Virus record (IMG/VR): IMGVR_UViG_3300030328_002664
Span: 1 to 42,903 of that record
Direction: 5' to 3' (one strand)
DNA: 42,903 bases
Source of the DNA: a virus
Shown here: positions 46 to 15,501 of the stretch, piece by piece
Numbering within the stretch: position 1 is the stretch's first letter
How the letters are laid out: each line of letters starts with the position of its first letter
The notes under the pieces: model-generated
Database searches by the model: none
Told to the model about the DNA's origin: nothing
What the model saw: only the letters and a program-made list of their open reading frames with translations
Made by a program: the position numbers and the translations under genes

Positions 46-1602
46 ATGTCAAATATGATAGTTAAAAATCTTAACTTCGGTGACGAAGCTAGGACGAAAA
101 TATTTGAAGGTATTGAAAAACTCACTAAAGCTGTTAGCTCCACACTTGGAGCTAGCGGTAAGTGTGTAATACTTGAAGATGGAGGAGGTAATCCTATTAT
201 TACAAAAGACGGTGTAACAGTAGCTGAAAATATAATCTTAAGAGATCCAGTGGAAAACATGGGTGCTACCTTATTAAAACAAGCTGCTAAAAAAACTGTA
301 CAAGAAGCTGGAGATGGTACCACAACTGCCACAGTATTAGCTCATGCAATATTAGAGCAGGCTTACGGTATATTAGATAAGAAAAACGTAAGAGAAATAA
401 AAGAAGGTATAAACACAGCTGTTGAAGAAGTTTTAAAATATCTAGATAGTATATCTATACCTGTAGAAGATAAAATGCTAGATAATGTAGCTACTATATC
501 TACAAATAATGATAAAGTTTTAGGAAAACTCATAGCTGATGCTTTTAGAGAAGTAGATAAAACAGGAGTTGTTATGATGGAGGTTTCAGTTTCAGGAGAA
601 ACTAAAGTAGAAATAATAGATGGAGCTCAGTATCCAAAAGGTATTATTAGTCCTCATTTTATAACAAATAAAGAAAAAAAGACTGCTGAACTAGATAATC
701 CAGTTGTTCTTATTATTGATTCTGAAGTATCTAATATTAGACAAATACAAGGAATATTAGAGTATGTTATTAAAAACAAAAAATCTCTTTTAATTATAGG
801 TGACTTAGAACCTGATGTTTTAACAGCTTTAGCGATGAATAAAACTAAAGGTAATATAAAAGTTAATGTAATTGAAGCACCTGTATTAGGAATAAATAGA
901 AAACAAATATTAGATGATATTGCTTTACTAACTAATGCAGTAGTAATAAACGAAGATCTAGGAGATGACATGGATGTTATAGATATTGATTTCTTAGGCA
1001 CTTGTTCTAAAAGTGTTACAAATCAAGATGAAACTATAATACAAATTCAGGAAACTAAACCTGAAACACTTTCTATAATTAAAGAGTTAAAAAAAGAATT
1101 AAAAACTTGTAAGATTCCAGACCAAATTATAAGTTTAGAAAAAAGATTAGCAAGATTAGCTGCTAAAATAGCTGTTGTTAAAATAGGTGCTAATTCTGAA
1201 GTAGAGTTAAAAGAAAAACTCGATAGAGCAGAAGACGCTATTTGTGCAACTAAAGCTGCAATAAAAGAAGGTATAGTTCCCGGCGGGGGAGTTGCTTTGT
1301 TAAATGCAGCAATGAAAGTAGATGAAAAAAATAAAGGAGAAAGAATATTAACTGCTTCTATATTGTCACCGTATAAAACTATTTTATTAAATGCGGGTTC
1401 AGAACAAATAACAATTCCAGCTGAAGATGGACATGGAGTAAATGTTTTAACTGGCGAAGTTGTTGATATGGTTAAAGCAGGAATTATAGATCCTTTATTA
1501 GTAACTAAAAGCGCTTTGAAAAATGCAGCTTCTGTGGCTACTACTATTTTATCTACAGATTGTGTAATTAATAATTTAAGAGTTGATGAAAGCAATAGGT
1601 AG
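46..1602 (+). CDS. groEL: Phage-encoded GroEL-like chaperonin (Cpn60)
   Basis: Group I chaperonin of 518 residues, expected to form an ATP-driven folding cage in the cytoplasm with the GroES encoded next. Visible hallmarks: ITKDGVTVA at residues 52-60, the GDGTTTATVLA nucleotide motif at about 89-99 (D90 matches the catalytic Asp87 of E. coli GroEL), EDA before the VPGGGVALLNA motif near residue 415, and IIDPLLVTKSALKNAASVA near the C-terminus. It is divergent: the usual TLGPKGR loop reads TLGASGK, and the Gly-Gly-Met C-terminal tail is missing, which with small internal deletions explains the length against about 548 in bacteria. ATG at 46 follows the AATTA leader; an alternative ATG lies at 55. 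The divergence and the phage neighbours argue for a virally adapted chaperonin rather than a recent host capture. Confidence 0.95.
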   Translation: MSNMIVKNLNFGDEARTKIFEGIEKLTKAVSSTLGASGKCVILEDGGGNPIITKDGVTVAENIILRDPVENMGATLLKQAAKKTVQEAGDGTTTATVLAHAILEQAYGILDKKNVREIKEGINTAVEEVLKYLDSISIPVEDKMLDNVATISTNNDKVLGKLIADAFREVDKTGVVMMEVSVSGETKVEIIDGAQYPKGIISPHFITNKEKKTAELDNPVVLIIDSEVSNIRQIQGILEYVIKNKKSLLIIGDLEPDVLTALAMNKTKGNIKVNVIEAPVLGINRKQILDDIALLTNAVVINEDLGDDMDVIDIDFLGTCSKSVTNQDETIIQIQETKPETLSIIKELKKELKTCKIPDQIISLEKRLARLAAKIAVVKIGANSEVELKEKLDRAEDAICATKAAIKEGIVPGGGVALLNAAMKVDEKNKGERILTASILSPYKTILLNAGSEQITIPAEDGHGVNVLTGEVVDMVKAGIIDPLLVTKSALKNAASVATTILSTDCVINNLRVDESNR

Positions 1603-1846
1603 AAATTTAATAATAGAAAAAGCTAAACAAGGAACTACAAAAACTAAAGGTGGTTTGTTACTTGCTGAAAAACATAAAGAAGACATTAGGTATACAAAAG
1701 CTAAGGTTTTATCTGTAGGTGATGAGATAAATGGATTAAACAAAAACGATGTTATTTATTTTGATCGTCACGCTGGACATAAAATTGAAGTAGAAGATAA
1801 TACTTACCATGTTATAAAATCACAAGATGTGGTCGTTGTTTTATGA
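1586..1846 (+). CDS. groES: Phage GroES-like co-chaperonin (Cpn10)
   Basis: Single-domain cpn10 of 86 residues, the lid of the GroEL cage. It starts MKAIGRNLIIEKAK. A mobile-loop region (TTKTKGGLLLAE) follows at about residues 17-28, then VLSVGDEI, the NDVIYFDRHAGHKIEVED core and a final SQDVVVVL strand, all in cpn10 order. The open frame extends back to a TTG at 1583, but I choose the ATG at 1586 because the domain begins there. It overlaps the end of groEL by 17 bases, so the two are probably translationally coupled. The order groEL then groES is the reverse of the common bacterial operon. Confidence 0.9.
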   Translation: MKAIGRNLIIEKAKQGTTKTKGGLLLAEKHKEDIRYTKAKVLSVGDEINGLNKNDVIYFDRHAGHKIEVEDNTYHVIKSQDVVVVL

Positions 1847-9573: not shown

Positions 9574-9831
9574 ATGGCAAAAGTAAAAAAACTAAATAAA
9601 GAAGAATTAGCAAAAGTTACAGAATTAACTAATAAAGCTAATCAAATAGCTATGCAATTAGGTTCTTTAGATGTTCAAAAAAGTTTATTAAGAGAACAGT
9701 TTAAAGAAAATAATGTTTTAATAGAGGAATCTAAAAAAGAATTAATGGAAAAATATGGTAATATTTCTATTGATTTAAAAGACGGAACTATTAGTGAAAC
9801 AGAAGAGGTTGTAGCTGAAGATGGAAAATAA
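9574..9831 (+). CDS. Small coiled-coil protein
   Basis: 85 residues starting MAKVKKLNKEELAKVTEL. Residues 5-65 form a near-continuous amphipathic helix with heptad-like spacing of Leu, Ile and Val (for example LGSLDVQKSLLREQFKEN), then a short EKYGNISIDLKDGTISE tail. No enzyme motif. The strong repeat leader suggests good expression. An assembly-chaperone or structural adaptor role is possible but unproven. The end overlaps the next start by 11 bases. Confidence 0.6.
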   Translation: MAKVKKLNKEELAKVTELTNKANQIAMQLGSLDVQKSLLREQFKENNVLIEESKKELMEKYGNISIDLKDGTISETEEVVAEDGK

Positions 9832-10048
9832 TATAAGAAAAATCAGTATTGGTTCTGATTATAAAAATGACGCTATGCATTATGCTGTAGGACAACAAGT
9901 ATACGGCGGTCATGTTATATCTCATATTATTTTAGAACCACAAGATAATTCTTATAATATTTATATAAAGAAAAACAACGAGGTATTGCCATGGAAAAAG
10001 TTTAACTCTAACATGGCTATATCCGTTGAATATGACTTAGAGTATTAA
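9821..10048 (+). CDS. Unrecognised small protein, 75 residues
   Basis: 75 residues starting MENNIRKISIGSDYKNDAMH, with alternating strands (GGHVISHIILEPQDNSYNI, AISVEYDLEY). The start overlaps the coiled-coil gene by 11 bases in a different frame, and the stop shares one base with the following ATG, so three genes are probably co-translated. No family recognised. Confidence 0.6.
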   Translation: MENNIRKISIGSDYKNDAMHYAVGQQVYGGHVISHIILEPQDNSYNIYIKKNNEVLPWKKFNSNMAISVEYDLEY

Positions 10049-10674
10049 TGAAAAGTTTATATGATTTTATCGTAGAACCTCTGGGTGAAACATATAACAA
10101 TGAGATTCAAATAGAAGATAAGAGTTTAATTTTAAATTCTAAAATTGAAAGCTTTAAGTTTGTTAACAGGCACGCGATAGTTAAAACATGTCCATTAGCT
10201 TATTATACTCCTATAAATGTAGGAGATATTGTTATAGTTCATCAAAATGTTTTTAGAGTTTTTTATGATACTAAAGGTAAAAGAAAAAAAAGTAGATCAT
10301 GGTTTAAAGATGATTTATATTTTTGTCAACCAGATCAAATATATTTATACAAACAAAATGATATTTGGAATACTTTTAATGATAGATGTTTCATAAAACC
10401 ACTAAAAAACAATTCATCTCTAAGCAGTGAAAAAGAACAAAAGCTTATAGGTATACTAAAATATAGTAATAGCTCCTTAGAAGACAAGGGAATATACCCA
10501 GAAGACACAGTAGGTTATACTCCATATGGAGAGTGGGAGTTTATTATAGATGGTGAACGTCTTTATTGTATGAAATCAAATGATATTGTAATTAAGTATG
10601 AAAATAAAAGAAACCAAGAAGAATATAATCCAAGCTGGGCAAGTAGCGGTGGACGAGCTAATCAAAGTAGCTAA
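10048..10674 (+). CDS. Putative tandem GroES-like (double cpn10) protein
   Basis: 208 residues that appear to contain two divergent cpn10 folds. First half, residues 5-102: YDFIVEPLG, LILNS, then PINVGDIVIVHQNVFR and a closing DDLYFCQPDQIYLYK. Second half, residues 111-185: NDRCFIKPLKN (compare the DRVLVKP start of GroES), a loop, GYTPYGEWEFIIDGERLYCM and SNDIVIKYE, which matches the IDGEEYLI...DDILAVV ending of GroES. The halves align with each other at their ends (LYFCQPDQIYLY with LYCMKSNDIVIKY). Chloroplast Cpn20 is a known double cpn10. If correct, this would be a second co-chaperonin or a derived assembly factor directly upstream of the terminase genes. The assignment rests on reading motifs and is moderately sure. 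Confidence 0.5.
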   Translation: MKSLYDFIVEPLGETYNNEIQIEDKSLILNSKIESFKFVNRHAIVKTCPLAYYTPINVGDIVIVHQNVFRVFYDTKGKRKKSRSWFKDDLYFCQPDQIYLYKQNDIWNTFNDRCFIKPLKNNSSLSSEKEQKLIGILKYSNSSLEDKGIYPEDTVGYTPYGEWEFIIDGERLYCMKSNDIVIKYENKRNQEEYNPSWASSGGRANQSS

Positions 10675-10876
10675 AGAACCAATTGTTGATTCAGACGATG
10701 ATATATCAGCGGATAGATTAAAGAATGCTGCGGCTACGAAAAAACTAGCTATATTTGATGCTTTTGAAATACTTAATAGAATTGAAGAAGAAAAAAATAT
10801 GTTAGAAGATAAGCCAAAAGAAGAAGTTAAAAAAGAAAAAACCTTTAGAGGTTTTGCAGAAGGTAGATCAAAATAA
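10598..10876 (+). CDS. Putative small terminase subunit
   Basis: 92 residues starting MKIKETKKNIIQAGQVAVDE. Mainly helical, with an acidic DSDDDISADRLKNAAATKK segment, a second helix (LAIFDAFEILNRIEEEKNM) and a basic tail. The length is on the short side for TerS. The call rests mainly on position: it ends in the TAATG that starts the large terminase. The start at 10598 lies inside the preceding gene, giving a 77-base overlap in another frame. A different DNA-binding packaging adaptor cannot be excluded. Confidence 0.55.
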   Translation: MKIKETKKNIIQAGQVAVDELIKVAKEPIVDSDDDISADRLKNAAATKKLAIFDAFEILNRIEEEKNMLEDKPKEEVKKEKTFRGFAEGRSK

Positions 10877-13086
10877 TGTATCAGCAAAGTTTATATAAAA
10901 TATTAAAAAACTATATTAAACCACATATTGTAAAGAAAAACAATAAAAAGAAAAAGTGGGAATATGGTTATAATAAAGAGCATGATGTTATAGTCATAAG
11001 TAAAACTGGAGAAATAGGTGATATTTATGAAATACAAGATTTAAAAATTGCTTTACCTAAGGAAAAAGATACACATACTTTTGATAATAATAAATGGAGT
11101 AAAACAGATTACCCTAAGATTCTATCTAAAATAAAAACTGTTTTTGATTGGAGACAATATCCTGAAGATTTTAAAGAAAAATGGTATGATTACATTGATA
11201 AAGAGTTTACACGTAGAGAAGAAGGTTTTTGGTTTTATAACAAAGATGTTCCTACTTATCTTACTGGCACTCATTATATGTACTTGCAGTGGAGTAAGAT
11301 TGACGTTGGGGCACCAGACTTTAGAGAAGCCAATAGATTATTCTTCATATTCTGGGAAGCTTGCAAAGCAGATACAAGATGCTACGGAATGTGCTACCTT
11401 AAAAACCGTCGTTCTGGATTCTCTTTCATGGCGTCTGGAGAAGTTGTAAACTTAGCAACAATATCAAGTGATTCAAGATATGGTATATTATCAAAATCTG
11501 GACCTGATGCAAAAAAAATGTTTACTGATAAGGTTGTACCAATATCAGTTAATTATCCTTTCTTTTTTAAACCGATTCAAGATGGTATGGATCGACCTAA
11601 AACAGAATTAGCATATAGAGTACCAGCTTCTAAATTTACTAGACGTAAATTAGATACTAACGAAACTCTTGAAGAACTAAAAGGTCTTGACACCACTATT
11701 GACTGGAAAAATACAGGTGATAATAGTTATGATGGTGAAAAATTAAAACTATTAGTACATGATGAATCAGGTAAATGGGAGAGACCTAATAATATTTTAA
11801 ATAACTGGAGAGTTACAAAAACTACATTAAGATTAGGAAGCAGAATTATTGGTAAGTGTATGATGGGATCAACATCAAACGCTTTAGATAAAGGAGGTGA
11901 TAACTTTAAAAAATTATACGATGACTCAAATGTTACACAACGAAACGCCAACGGACAGACTCGTTCGGGACTCTATTCTTTGTTCATTCCTATGGAATGG
12001 AACTACGAAGGATACATTGATTCTTATGGATTACCTGTGTTCGACACACCTAGTAGACCAATTATCGGACCCAAAGGAGACAAAATTGAGCTTGGGGTTA
12101 TTAAGTACTGGGAAAACGAAGTTGAAGGATTAAAGCAAGATCAAAACGGATTAAACGAATTTTATAGACAATTTCCACGAACAACTCAACACGCTTTTAG
12201 AGATGAATCTAAAGCATCTTTATTTAATCTAGTAAAGATATATGAGCAAATAGATTTTAACGAAGATTGTCAAAGTTATAAAACAGTAACAAAAGGTTCT
12301 TTTCAATGGGAACACGGAGTTAAAGATACTAAGGTGATTTTTATGCCTAATGAAAACGGTAGATTTAATATATCATGGGTTCCACCAGTTCATTTACAAA
12401 ACAATGTAATAATGAAAAATGGTGTGAGATACCCAGGTAATGATCACACAGGATGTTTTGGTTGTGACCCATATGATATATCAGGTACTGTAGATTCAAG
12501 AGGTTCAAATGGTTCACTACATGGACTTACAAAATTTTCTATGGAAAATATACCACCAAATATGTTTTTTTTAGAATATATATCAAGACCACAAACAGCG
12601 GAGATATTTTTTGAAGATGTTTTAATGGCTTGTGTTTTTTACGGTATGCCAATACTTGCGGAAAATAATAAACCAAGATTGTTGTATCATTTTAAAAGAA
12701 GAGGTTATAGAGGTTTTAGTATGAATAGACCTGATAAACTCTTAATGAAACTTTCAGTAACAGAAAGAGAAATAGGTGGAATACCTAACTCAAGTGAAGA
12801 TATAAAACAAGCGCATGCTGCTGCTATAGAATCATATATAGAAACCTACATTGGTAATTTAGGTTCAAAATATGGTAATATGTATTTTCAAAAAACATTA
12901 GAAGATTGGGCTAAATTCGATATTAATAATAGAACAAAGCACGATGCTTCTATTAGTAGTGGTTTAGCAATAATGGGTTGTAATAGAAACATGTATAAAC
13001 CCATATTTACTAGAACTTTAACGCCAAAGCCTTTAGGTTTTAAAAAATATAGTAATAAAGGAACATTATCAAAAATAATAAAATAA
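10876..13086 (+). CDS. terL: Terminase large subunit (ATPase-nuclease)
   Basis: 736 residues; powers DNA packaging into the prohead and cuts concatemers. ATPase domain: the P-loop reads KNRRSGFS at 176-183, a variant with the Lys first, like KSARVGYS of lambda gpA. The Walker B motif LLVHDE is at 292-297, followed by a motif III-like CMMGSTSN. Nuclease domain: an acidic residue in GCDPYD (D531) in the usual RNase H-like first-strand position, followed further on by MNRPDKLLMKLS and helical segments. Portal and capsid genes follow directly, as expected. Two patches (about 11340-11450 and 11940-12130) use visibly more GC-rich codons than the rest. Confidence 0.9.
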   Translation: MYQQSLYKILKNYIKPHIVKKNNKKKKWEYGYNKEHDVIVISKTGEIGDIYEIQDLKIALPKEKDTHTFDNNKWSKTDYPKILSKIKTVFDWRQYPEDFKEKWYDYIDKEFTRREEGFWFYNKDVPTYLTGTHYMYLQWSKIDVGAPDFREANRLFFIFWEACKADTRCYGMCYLKNRRSGFSFMASGEVVNLATISSDSRYGILSKSGPDAKKMFTDKVVPISVNYPFFFKPIQDGMDRPKTELAYRVPASKFTRRKLDTNETLEELKGLDTTIDWKNTGDNSYDGEKLKLLVHDESGKWERPNNILNNWRVTKTTLRLGSRIIGKCMMGSTSNALDKGGDNFKKLYDDSNVTQRNANGQTRSGLYSLFIPMEWNYEGYIDSYGLPVFDTPSRPIIGPKGDKIELGVIKYWENEVEGLKQDQNGLNEFYRQFPRTTQHAFRDESKASLFNLVKIYEQIDFNEDCQSYKTVTKGSFQWEHGVKDTKVIFMPNENGRFNISWVPPVHLQNNVIMKNGVRYPGNDHTGCFGCDPYDISGTVDSRGSNGSLHGLTKFSMENIPPNMFFLEYISRPQTAEIFFEDVLMACVFYGMPILAENNKPRLLYHFKRRGYRGFSMNRPDKLLMKLSVTEREIGGIPNSSEDIKQAHAAAIESYIETYIGNLGSKYGNMYFQKTLEDWAKFDINNRTKHDASISSGLAIMGCNRNMYKPIFTRTLTPKPLGFKKYSNKGTLSKIIK

Positions 13087-15501
13087 ATGATAACATATAA
13101 TTACGCAGGCTCGTTTCCTAGTCAGGTAGTACCAGACGCGGAAAAGCAAACAATGGAATATGGTTATGCTGTCGGTAGAGCCATAGAAGGTGAATGGTTC
13201 TCTGGAGACAGAGGAGGCATGGGAAATAGATACCAAAATAGTTGGTTAAACTTCCATAGATTAAGATTATATGCTAGAGGAGAACAACCTGTGCAAAAAT
13301 ATAAAGATGAATTAGCTGTAAATGGTGATTTATCTTATTTAAATTTAGACTGGAAACCAGTTCCTATTATTCCTAAATTTGTAGATATAATAGTAAATGG
13401 AATGTCTCAAAGAGTTTTTGATGTAAAAGCTTATGCACAAGATCCTGAATCTTTAAAACAAAGAACAAAATACGCTGACGCTATAATGCGTGATATGTAT
13501 GCTAAAGAGTTGATCCAAGCAACAAAAGAAGCTACAGGAATGAACTTTTTTAATTCAGCTGATCCAAATAATATACCTGAAACTCAAGAAGATTTAGATC
13601 TTCATATGCAATTAAGTTATAAACAATCTATAGAAATTGCAGAAGAAGAAGCTATTGATAGTGTTTTACAAGCTAATAAATATGAATTAGTAAAAAGAAG
13701 ACTCACTGAAGATTTAACAGTTATTGGAATTGGAGCAGTGAAAACTAACTTTAATTTAGCTAATGGTATTGATATAGAATATGTAGATCCTGCTAATTTA
13801 GTTTATTCTTATACTGATGATCCAAACTTTGAAGATATATACTATGTTGGAGAAGTAAAATCTATGAGTTTAGTAGAAGTTAAAAAACAGTTTCCATGGT
13901 TGTCTGACCAGGAATTAGAAAAAATACAAAAATTCCCAGGTGATGCTAATTATACTAGGAATTTTTATGCTCAACAAGATTCTTATAATCAAGTTCAAGT
14001 ATTATATTTTGAATACAAAACATATAGTAATCAAGTATTTAAAATAAAACAAACAGAACAAGGCTTAGAAAAAGCATTAGAAAAACCTGATACCTTTGAT
14101 CCACCTTCAAATGACAACTTTGAAAGAGTAGGAAGATCTATAGAAGTTTTATATACTGGAGCTAAAATATTAGGTCATGAAATGATGCTGGATTGGAAAA
14201 TGTCTGAAAATATGACAAGACCTACATCTAACGTTAGTAAAGTAAATATGAATTATTGTATTTGTGCACCTAAGCTCTATAAAGGTATGATAGAATCTAC
14301 TGTTAGTCGTATTACTGGTTTTGCAGATATGATTCAATTAACACATTTAAAACTTCAACAAGTATTATCAAGAATGGTTCCAGATGGAGTATTTGTAGAT
14401 GTTGATGGTTTAGCCGAGGTTGATTTAGGTAATGGAACAAATTATAATCCTGCAGAAGCATTAAATATGTACTTCCAAACAGGTAGTATAGTAGGTAGAT
14501 CTATGACTCAAGAAGGAGATATAAATAGAGGAAAAGTCCCTATTCAAGAATTACAAACATCAGCAGGTGGTCAGAAAATAGCAAGTTTAATTCAAACATA
14601 TCAGTATTATTTACAAATGATAAGAGATGTGACCGGATTAAATGAAGCTACTGATGCTAGTACTCCAGATGTTAAAGCTTTAGTTGGATTGCAAAAAATA
14701 GCAGCTGCTAACTCTAACACAGCTTTAAGACATTTAATGAAATCTAGTTTATATTTAACTTTGAGAATTTGTGAAAATATATCTTTAAGAATAGCAGATG
14801 TTTTACAATTTCCATTAACTAGAGCTGCTTTAATTGATTCTATATCTGCTTATAATACAGGTACATTAGAGGAATTACAAGAAAAAAGTTTACAAGACTT
14901 TGGTATATTTTTAGAACTAGAACCTGACGAAGAACAAAAAGCGCAATTAGAACAAAATATACAAGTTGCTTTAGCTTCAGGTGGTATTGATTTAGATGAC
15001 GCAATTGATGTAAGACAGGTTAAAAATTTAAAACTAGCTAATCAGTTATTAAAACAAAAGCGTAAAAAGAAATTAGAAAAAGATCAAGCAGCACAACAAG
15101 CTAATATCCAAGCTCAAGCAGCAGCAAACGCTCAAGCAGCTGAACAAGCAACATTAGCAGAAATGCAAAAACAACAAGCTTTAGCTGAAACAGAAGTTCA
15201 AATAGAACAAGCTAAGTCTCAAATGGAAATTCAAAGAATGCAGACAGAAGCTACAATTAAAAAAGAGTTAATGGCTGAAGAGTTTAATTACAACATGCAG
15301 TTAGCTAGAATTAAAGCTGATGCAGAAGGTATGAAAGAGCGAGAAATTGAAAATAGAAAAGATAACAGAATTAAAATGCAAGGCACACAAGAATCTCAAT
15401 TAATACAGCAAAGACAAAACAATGCTTTGCCTACTGATTTTGAATCTGCAGGTTTTGATTCGTTAGGTGGGTTCGGTCTAGAACAATTTGAACCTAGATA
15501 A
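13087..15501 (+). CDS. Portal protein
   Basis: 804 residues, forming the dodecameric DNA channel at the capsid vertex. After a short N-terminus comes the segment GEQPVQKYKDELAVNGDLSY and then PIIPKFVDIIVNGMSQRVFD, of the kind seen at the start of many portal proteins. Long helices with DVTGLNEATDASTP and LRHLMKSSLYLTLRICENIS match the stem and wing pattern. Residues 657-765 are an Ala/Gln/Glu-rich coiled coil, a C-terminal barrel-like extension common in podovirus portals. It starts right at the end of terL and is followed by a putative scaffold and the major capsid gene, which supports the call. Confidence 0.82.
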   Translation: MITYNYAGSFPSQVVPDAEKQTMEYGYAVGRAIEGEWFSGDRGGMGNRYQNSWLNFHRLRLYARGEQPVQKYKDELAVNGDLSYLNLDWKPVPIIPKFVDIIVNGMSQRVFDVKAYAQDPESLKQRTKYADAIMRDMYAKELIQATKEATGMNFFNSADPNNIPETQEDLDLHMQLSYKQSIEIAEEEAIDSVLQANKYELVKRRLTEDLTVIGIGAVKTNFNLANGIDIEYVDPANLVYSYTDDPNFEDIYYVGEVKSMSLVEVKKQFPWLSDQELEKIQKFPGDANYTRNFYAQQDSYNQVQVLYFEYKTYSNQVFKIKQTEQGLEKALEKPDTFDPPSNDNFERVGRSIEVLYTGAKILGHEMMLDWKMSENMTRPTSNVSKVNMNYCICAPKLYKGMIESTVSRITGFADMIQLTHLKLQQVLSRMVPDGVFVDVDGLAEVDLGNGTNYNPAEALNMYFQTGSIVGRSMTQEGDINRGKVPIQELQTSAGGQKIASLIQTYQYYLQMIRDVTGLNEATDASTPDVKALVGLQKIAAANSNTALRHLMKSSLYLTLRICENISLRIADVLQFPLTRAALIDSISAYNTGTLEELQEKSLQDFGIFLELEPDEEQKAQLEQNIQVALASGGIDLDDAIDVRQVKNLKLANQLLKQKRKKKLEKDQAAQQANIQAQAAANAQAAEQATLAEMQKQQALAETEVQIEQAKSQMEIQRMQTEATIKKELMAEEFNYNMQLARIKADAEGMKEREIENRKDNRIKMQGTQESQLIQQRQNNALPTDFESAGFDSLGGFGLEQFEPR

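Follow-up and report, generated by a model that had tools for sequence, protein, structure and literature searches.

A 208-amino-acid (aa) protein, P0001, is probably a tandem, Cpn20-like co-chaperonin that would form all or part of the lid on a seven-fold GroEL, with the phage's own GroEL as the first candidate. P0001 is encoded in the 42,903-base IMG/VR virus record IMGVR_UViG_3300030328_002664, which was analyzed as one stretch and is referred to here as the window. A preliminary description of the window had interpreted this open reading frame (ORF) as two cpn10 folds in a row, and the ORF and the motifs quoted for it are present: YDFIVEP (residues 5–11), LYFCQPDQIYLY (90–101), DRCFIKP (112–118), EFIIDGERLY (164–173), and LYCMKSNDIVIKY (172–184). 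The features of the gene are as follows.

10048–10674, plus strand: double-GroES (tandem Cpn10-fold) protein P0001, 208 aa (ORF, PHROG match, AlphaFold2 model, PDB structure matches)
10048–10359, plus strand: domain 1, residues about 1–104, GroES-type barrel (VIA, hhalign)
10081–10167, plus strand: candidate GroEL-binding mobile loop of domain 1, residues 12–40 (low predicted local distance difference test [pLDDT] values, hhalign placement, ratio of nonsynonymous to synonymous change [pN/pS])
10126–10134, plus strand: hydrophobic tripeptide LIL, domain-1 residues 27–29, inside the candidate mobile loop
10360–10605, plus strand: domain 2, residues about 105–186, GroES-type barrel (VIA, hhalign)
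10399–10452, plus strand: shortened domain-2 loop, P118–G135, 18 residues, without a hydrophobic tripeptide (rows of alignment A2, pN/pS)
10598–10674, plus strand: C-terminal tail, residues 184–208, overlapping the start of a 92-aa ORF in another frame

AlphaFold2 predicted P0001 (monomer model, 51 sequences) as two beta barrels, with a mean pLDDT of 81.2 and a predicted template modeling score of 0.73; residues 30–36 have pLDDT <50. Using Foldseek against the PDB, we found the tandem Chlamydomonas chain 7ekq_R in first place (E = 4e-5, 202 columns) and 7ekq_Q in second (E = 5.8e-4). These were the only two matches below 0.001, and single GroES/Cpn10 chains and gp31 ranked below them. The PDB molecule names in 7ekq are "Cpn20 co-chaperonin subunit" for R (two chains), "Chaperonin 23" for Q (one chain), and "Chaperonin 11" for P (one chain). 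VIA aligned model residues 1–185 to 7ekq_R with Z 10.2 (151 residues, 3.9 Å). Domain 1 (model residues 1–103) reached Z 8.9 to Cpn10 1wnr_G and 3nx6 and Z 7.6 to gp31 2cgt_O (62 residues, 1.7 Å), and domain 2 (model residues 106–185) reached Z 7.8 to GroES 8wuc_a. The GroES-like domain of alcohol dehydrogenases, another candidate in the VIA list, stands under the Cpn10 rows at Z 5.9 and below.

A second AlphaFold2 model, of a Pervagoviridae-type relative (L105) that is 39% identical to P0001, has a pLDDT of 82.2, and 7ekq_R was again its first match (Foldseek E = 2e-4; VIA Z 10.5, 162 residues, 4.6 Å, over residues 1–190). The half domains of L105 align to Cpn10/GroES chains with Z 8.0 (residues 1–102) and 8.7 (residues 103–190). 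Among predicted viral structures, the top match to P0001 is an unnamed protein (E = 3.5e-19), ahead of the named match "Chaperonin cpn10" of Cellulophaga phage phi18:3 (E = 6e-12). Based on these models, each half of P0001 is predicted to be a GroES-type beta barrel, and the protein is predicted to hold two Cpn10-like domains in one chain, as in a Cpn20-type tandem co-chaperonin; a single GroES plus an extension is ruled out by the two barrels in both models. The preliminary interpretation of two successive cpn10 folds is thus borne out by structure prediction and by a structural search in which a tandem Cpn20 chain is the top solved match and GroES and gp31 chains are matched as well.

Profile comparison of the separate halves, also raised in the preliminary description, gave unequal results. 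We used hhalign to align each domain to eight Cpn10 sequences from outside the double-GroES family, with 300 column shuffles per domain and reversed profiles as controls. Domain 2 scored 42.9 (P = 1.1e-7), a value reached by 0 of 300 shuffles (maximum, 18.8; reversed profile, 12.9), and by profile the second half is identified as Cpn10. Domain 1 gave a weak match (score, 25.0; probability, 25) that is nevertheless above its controls (shuffle maximum, 20.6, with 0 of 300 reaching the score; reversed profile, 8.5). The domain-1 alignment is in register, and SLILNS falls on GGIVLTG of Escherichia coli GroES. In Pfam, PF00166 appears at E ≤1 in 27 of 51 family members; in six-frame searches, it matched the second half above cut-off in phi38:1 and Calle_2 and at E <0.001, yet under cut-off, in six IMG/VR records. 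Among other weak Pfam matches, MJ0548_C occurred in 12 of the 51 members (best E = 0.0053).

P0001 belongs to a family that is already represented in databases. Residues 1–182 match PHROG phrog_13932, "co-chaperonin GroES" (E = 1.9e-22). This name alone is no proof of a tandem protein because ordinary GroES was caught as well, through the second half of the profile, in 9 of 14 control genomes. Alignments of the double proteins begin at profile position 1, and the single GroES of the window matches the second half only of the 200-position profile. TBLASTN identified 77 GenBank phage records at E ≤0.01, every one with <60% identity to P0001: 68 from Flavobacterium sp. BAL314, 7 Cellulophaga phages, Maribacter phage Panino, and MW202828. 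The BAL314 records among the matches listed are elemo phages, and that of elemoF is a partial genome. In IMG/VR, we found at least 600 related stretches, from which 80 near full-length window-type loci were kept. Searches with the phi38:1 and elemo versions added 24 loci (20 elemo-type and 4 Pervagoviridae-type, for a total of 104), some of which are IMG/VR copies of GenBank isolates; with Panino's own patterns, no IMG/VR relative of its double GroES was found. A cellular origin of the gene was considered and disfavored: a scan of bacterial and archaeal genomes identified 17 loci, 16 of them titled as metagenome-assembled genomes and one on a binned archaeal contig, with no isolate genome title among them. 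The double GroES is carried by a virus family whose cultured members infect flavobacteria. These relatives, together with purifying selection on the gene, rule out a chance or misread ORF.

The gene is therefore not new: it is common to many related phages, and many GenBank relatives are labeled "chaperonin cpn10" or "co-chaperonin GroES" (MW202828 and phi40:1 are labeled "hypothetical"), with the tandem nature unmentioned in the annotations inspected. In the open-access literature, we found no description of a phage tandem GroES or of a three-gene chaperonin set. The Panino paper gives one sentence to homologues of GroEL and GroES (PMC11590407), and a term search of a paper on other Baltic Flavobacterium phages returned no chaperonin or GroE term (PMC7077304). 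The preliminary description had suggested that a tandem co-chaperonin beside packaging genes would be a new arrangement; the placement holds, with terminase downstream of the double GroES in 104 of 104 IMG/VR loci by TBLASTN, but what may be new is the tandem nature and the three-gene set rather than the gene.

The two halves are unequal, a correction to the preliminary interpretation: as judged from sequence, in the window lineage only domain 1 keeps a mobile-loop-like insertion. Alignment A2 has 51 rows and draws on 38 of the 80 window-type and 12 of the 24 other loci. The first-loop region (residues 11–43) is 30–33 residues long in all 51 rows, and residues 27–29 are hydrophobic in 49 (LIL, LVL, IVV, and alike; one MAV) and LIT in the other 2. 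Across the 80 loci, LIT likewise occurs twice and all other tripeptides are hydrophobic. This long loop with its hydrophobic tripeptide is the candidate for the expected GroEL-binding loop. The second loop (P118 to G135) has 18–19 residues in 48 of 51 rows and 28–29 in three Pervagoviridae-type rows, two of which carry GSIIV, resembling a normal mobile loop. By eye, both domains and the single phage GroES have a roof-forming segment approximately seven residues shorter than that of E. coli GroES, and the single GroES has a mobile loop reading GGLLLAEK.

The two loops also differ in pooled pN/pS. For this analysis, one of the 80 loci (L061, with a two-residue insertion) was dropped and duplicates were merged to 75 distinct sequences; only the 256 pairs with pS 0.05–0.5 were pooled, and pairs are not independent. 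Pooled pN/pS over codons 1–184 was 0.245, indicating purifying selection, with similar values for domain 1 (0.249) and domain 2 (0.240). The ratio was 0.235 on the first loop versus 0.444 on the short second loop (residues 119–131).

The genes encoding the window's other chaperonins and those flanking the double GroES are as follows.

46–1602, plus strand: phage GroEL, 518 aa (PF00118, E = 2.9e-59), with aspartates D52, D87, and D398 conserved
1583–1846, plus strand: ordinary single-domain phage GroES, ATG at 1586 (PF00166, E = 2e-13)
9821–10048, plus strand: conserved 75-aa ORF directly upstream of the double GroES (TBLASTN across loci)
10598–10876, plus strand: 92-aa ORF downstream of the double GroES, conserved in the window lineage (TBLASTN across loci)
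10876–13086, plus strand: terminase large subunit (phrog_6681, E = 2.2e-163)
13087–15501, plus strand: portal protein (phrog_6547, E = 2.7e-140)

The Pfam matches confirm the normal groEL–groES pair that had been described at 46–1846. In a set of 26 records, GroEL was found in 20, including 5 of 5 GenBank records (MW202828, Panino, elemoF, phi38:1, and Calle_2), and the single GroES was found in the same 20. In the 15 IMG/VR records that contain the two genes, 3.2–8.2 kb separates the single GroES from the double gene. Within the 5-kb or 8-kb flanks of the clipped loci, GroEL was seen at 4 of the 80 window-type loci, at 7 of the 20 elemo-type loci, and at none of the 4 Pervagoviridae-type loci, low counts that are expected because of these distances. 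Unlike E. coli GroEL, the window GroEL does not have a C-terminal GGM-repeat tail, and this tail is also missing from the elemo and MW202828 GroELs aligned with it. Phage phi38:1, which carries the double-GroES gene, has been studied during infection: methylated peptides of a phage GroEL (gp054 in that paper's numbering) are listed for infected cells and free-virion samples (PMC13288928), and no co-chaperonin came up when the main text was searched by term.

Several results weigh against a tandem co-chaperonin working with the phage GroEL. The AlphaFold2 fold rests on monomer prediction, Foldseek superposes the whole chain loosely on 7ekq_R (root mean square deviation, 7.4; template modeling score, 0.51), and the single-domain VIA scores of Z 7–9 are near that tool's middling range. 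With P0001 alone as the query, Pfam gave no family at E ≤1 and the PDB sequences gave no GroES; searching PDB sequences with the family profile gave nothing significant (best Cpn10, E = 0.13; an unrelated BamB chain, E = 0.24). Among 10 halves from five family members, Pfam Cpn10 was detected in only one, the second half of phi38:1 (25.4 bits versus a cut-off of 21.1); none of the five first halves matched it, and P0001's own second half had no Pfam match. The profile match between domain 1 and domain 2 spans only 13 columns, which rules out a recent internal duplication and suggests that the halves are old or separately derived. Domain 2 of P0001 lacks a normal mobile loop, and Panino has FET at the aligned domain-1 tripeptide. 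Of eight apical GroEL positions compared, the window protein keeps F204, L237, and L259 and differs at five (Y199I, Y203H, L234Q, V263A, and V264M). Finally, GroEL was not found in 6 of the 26 records, which end 0.2–5.7 kb upstream of the double gene. Five of these are plainly too short or borderline; the sixth (G005) extends 5.65 kb upstream, which exceeds 8 of the 15 gaps, and here GroEL may be truly absent or the pair may lie farther away.

Our favored explanation is that two GroES barrels, joined head to tail and encoded within the packaging gene block, would work as a lid, whole or part, on a seven-fold GroEL ring. The analysis itself shows the predicted fold, the sequence relationship, the gene set and its order, purifying selection, and the loop lengths; that the gene is expressed late and that its product binds GroEL and forms a lid are inferences, as are the composition of the ring and the clients. 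Domain 1 would dock on GroEL via its long flexible loop and hydrophobic tripeptide, and domain 2, which in the window lineage has lost most of its loop, would mainly occupy ring positions and shape the dome. The short roof segments of both domains and of the single GroES may leave a more open chamber, suited to large virion proteins, such that phage GroEL, ordinary GroES, and double GroES together would provide a custom folding chamber for proteins of the virus particle. By analogy with gp31 and its client gp23 (PMC5780408), virion proteins are the likely clients because the gene stands with those for terminase, portal, and a 483-aa head protein. The head protein matches phrog_13704, "virion structural protein"; its identity as the major capsid protein is a guess.

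The lid could take more than one form. Tentatively, the double GroES may form a stand-alone homo-oligomeric lid of four copies and eight domains, like Arabidopsis Cpn20, with the single GroES in a separate cycle; this would be a sub-case of the favored explanation. Cpn20 forms functional tetramers in vitro, and eight-domain lids work with GroEL (PMC5780408, PMC4242682). The distance between the two phage genes and their location on opposite strands in elemoF are also consistent with such a lid. However, PMC5780408 describes tandem and single plastid lids as coexisting, with six- or eight-domain lids still functional on GroEL, and states that the native lids of Arabidopsis and Chlamydomonas are most likely mixed rings of seven domains.

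A mixed seven-position lid of three double-GroES chains and one ordinary GroES, another sub-case of the tandem co-chaperonin explanation, is in our judgment somewhat unlikely. With the loop retained in domain 1 alone, this arrangement would present exactly four GroEL-binding loops; the lid would be weak, asymmetric, and roofless, and tuned for large virion proteins. Four working GroES subunits are the minimum for GroEL binding according to PMC4242682, citing its reference 28. As a count and not a measurement, three doubles plus one single give four loops, and four doubles give four loops too. The algal complex contains CPN11, CPN20, and CPN23 and is ClpP-bound (PMC8889267); by chain count, the 7ekq ring has 1 + 2 × 2 + 2 = 7 domains. 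A mixed phage lid would match this arithmetic of 3 × 2 + 1, and if so, viruses and chloroplasts would have reached the same lid design.

It is unlikely that the double GroES is instead a GroES-derived assembly or structural protein, its barrels co-opted as a scaffold, a portal or terminase assembly factor, or a minor virion part that acts off GroEL. The invariant place before the terminase gene, the separate complete groEL–groES pair on the same genomes, the loss of the domain-2 loop in the window lineage, and a single cpn10 gene among neck and tail genes of a Vibrio/Shewanella phage are all compatible with co-option. However, the long loop retained in domain 1, which has low model confidence and carries a hydrophobic tripeptide, is under purifying selection and hard to explain without a GroEL partner, and phage GroEL is present in 20 of 20 records that reach >5.7 kb upstream or were searched whole. 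A cap or regulator of another ring machine, like the algal Cpn11/20/23 complex on ClpP, is highly improbable: the best structural match, 7ekq, does come from a ClpP-bound complex (PMC8889267), but the match concerns the lid fold itself and phage GroEL co-occurs.

The tandem co-chaperonin explanation places P0001 closest to chloroplast Cpn20/Cpn23 (7ekq R and Q), which also have two GroES-type barrels per chain, give the best whole-length structural match, and likewise coexist with a single-domain partner and a GroEL-type chaperonin. In Cpn20-type proteins, both domains have a mobile loop with a hydrophobic tripeptide. P0001 has a tripeptide loop in domain 1 only, and we therefore call it Cpn20-like rather than filing it as Cpn20. 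It is also a phage gene beside terminase and not of plant, algal, or apicoplast origin, with only 9–16% identity to the chloroplast proteins in structural matches; plant sequences were not searched for closer relatives. The domain-2 mobile loop is shortened in the window lineage, and both roof segments are short by eye, whereas roof loops are reportedly retained in the domains of Arabidopsis Cpn20 (PMC4242682). The phrog_13932 proteins of Cellulophaga phages phi38:1 and Calle_2, the elemo phages, and Panino are of the same gene family and also precede terminase (by annotation, and by TBLASTN in IMG/VR copies of phi38:1, Calle_2, and an elemo phage); phi38:1-type members differ in their 28–29-residue domain-2 loop, compared with 18 residues in the window protein. 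Single-domain GroES/Cpn10 proteins (PF00166) have the fold of each P0001 half, but P0001 has two domains per chain and is below Pfam detection. T4 gp31, which lacks the roof, is a phage co-chaperonin that matches the fold of domain 1; unlike P0001, it has a single domain and works with host GroEL, whereas here two domains occur with a phage GroEL on the same genome.

Tandem co-chaperonins are described as specific to chloroplasts in one review (PMC5780408). A widespread phage tandem lid, with natural one- or two-loop variants and with phage GroEL and single GroES on the same genome, would offer a simple system for asking how a lid with an even number of domains is accommodated on a seven-fold chaperonin, and it would bear on what phages gain from carrying a whole chaperonin set.

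The ORFs flanking the double GroES differ in their conservation. According to TBLASTN, the 75-aa ORF, whose TAA stop overlaps the double-GroES ATG, precedes the double gene in all 98 window-type and elemo-type loci that extend far enough to include it and in 0 of 4 Pervagoviridae-type loci; its product is a possible partner of the double GroES. ORFs of similar size occupy the same place in MW202828, Panino, and phi38:1. The 92-aa ORF was found downstream in 80 of 80 window-type loci and in 0 of 24 others.

The C-terminal YNPSW tail of P0001 is absent from five GenBank relatives in alignment A1. Where the tail overlaps the 92-aa ORF, pS is 0.13 and 0.18 in the two frames versus 0.38 over codons 1–184. 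The low synonymous change in both overlapping frames, together with the missing tail in GenBank relatives, suggests that the tail is an overprinted extension.

Two genes elsewhere were also considered. A 204-aa gene before groES in phage CBB, inspected by eye with no search run, has no GroES pattern and was rejected as a second tandem. In the Vibrio/Shewanella phage locus L134, a single cpn10 gene at positions 586–906 lies between the tail-completion and major tail protein genes.
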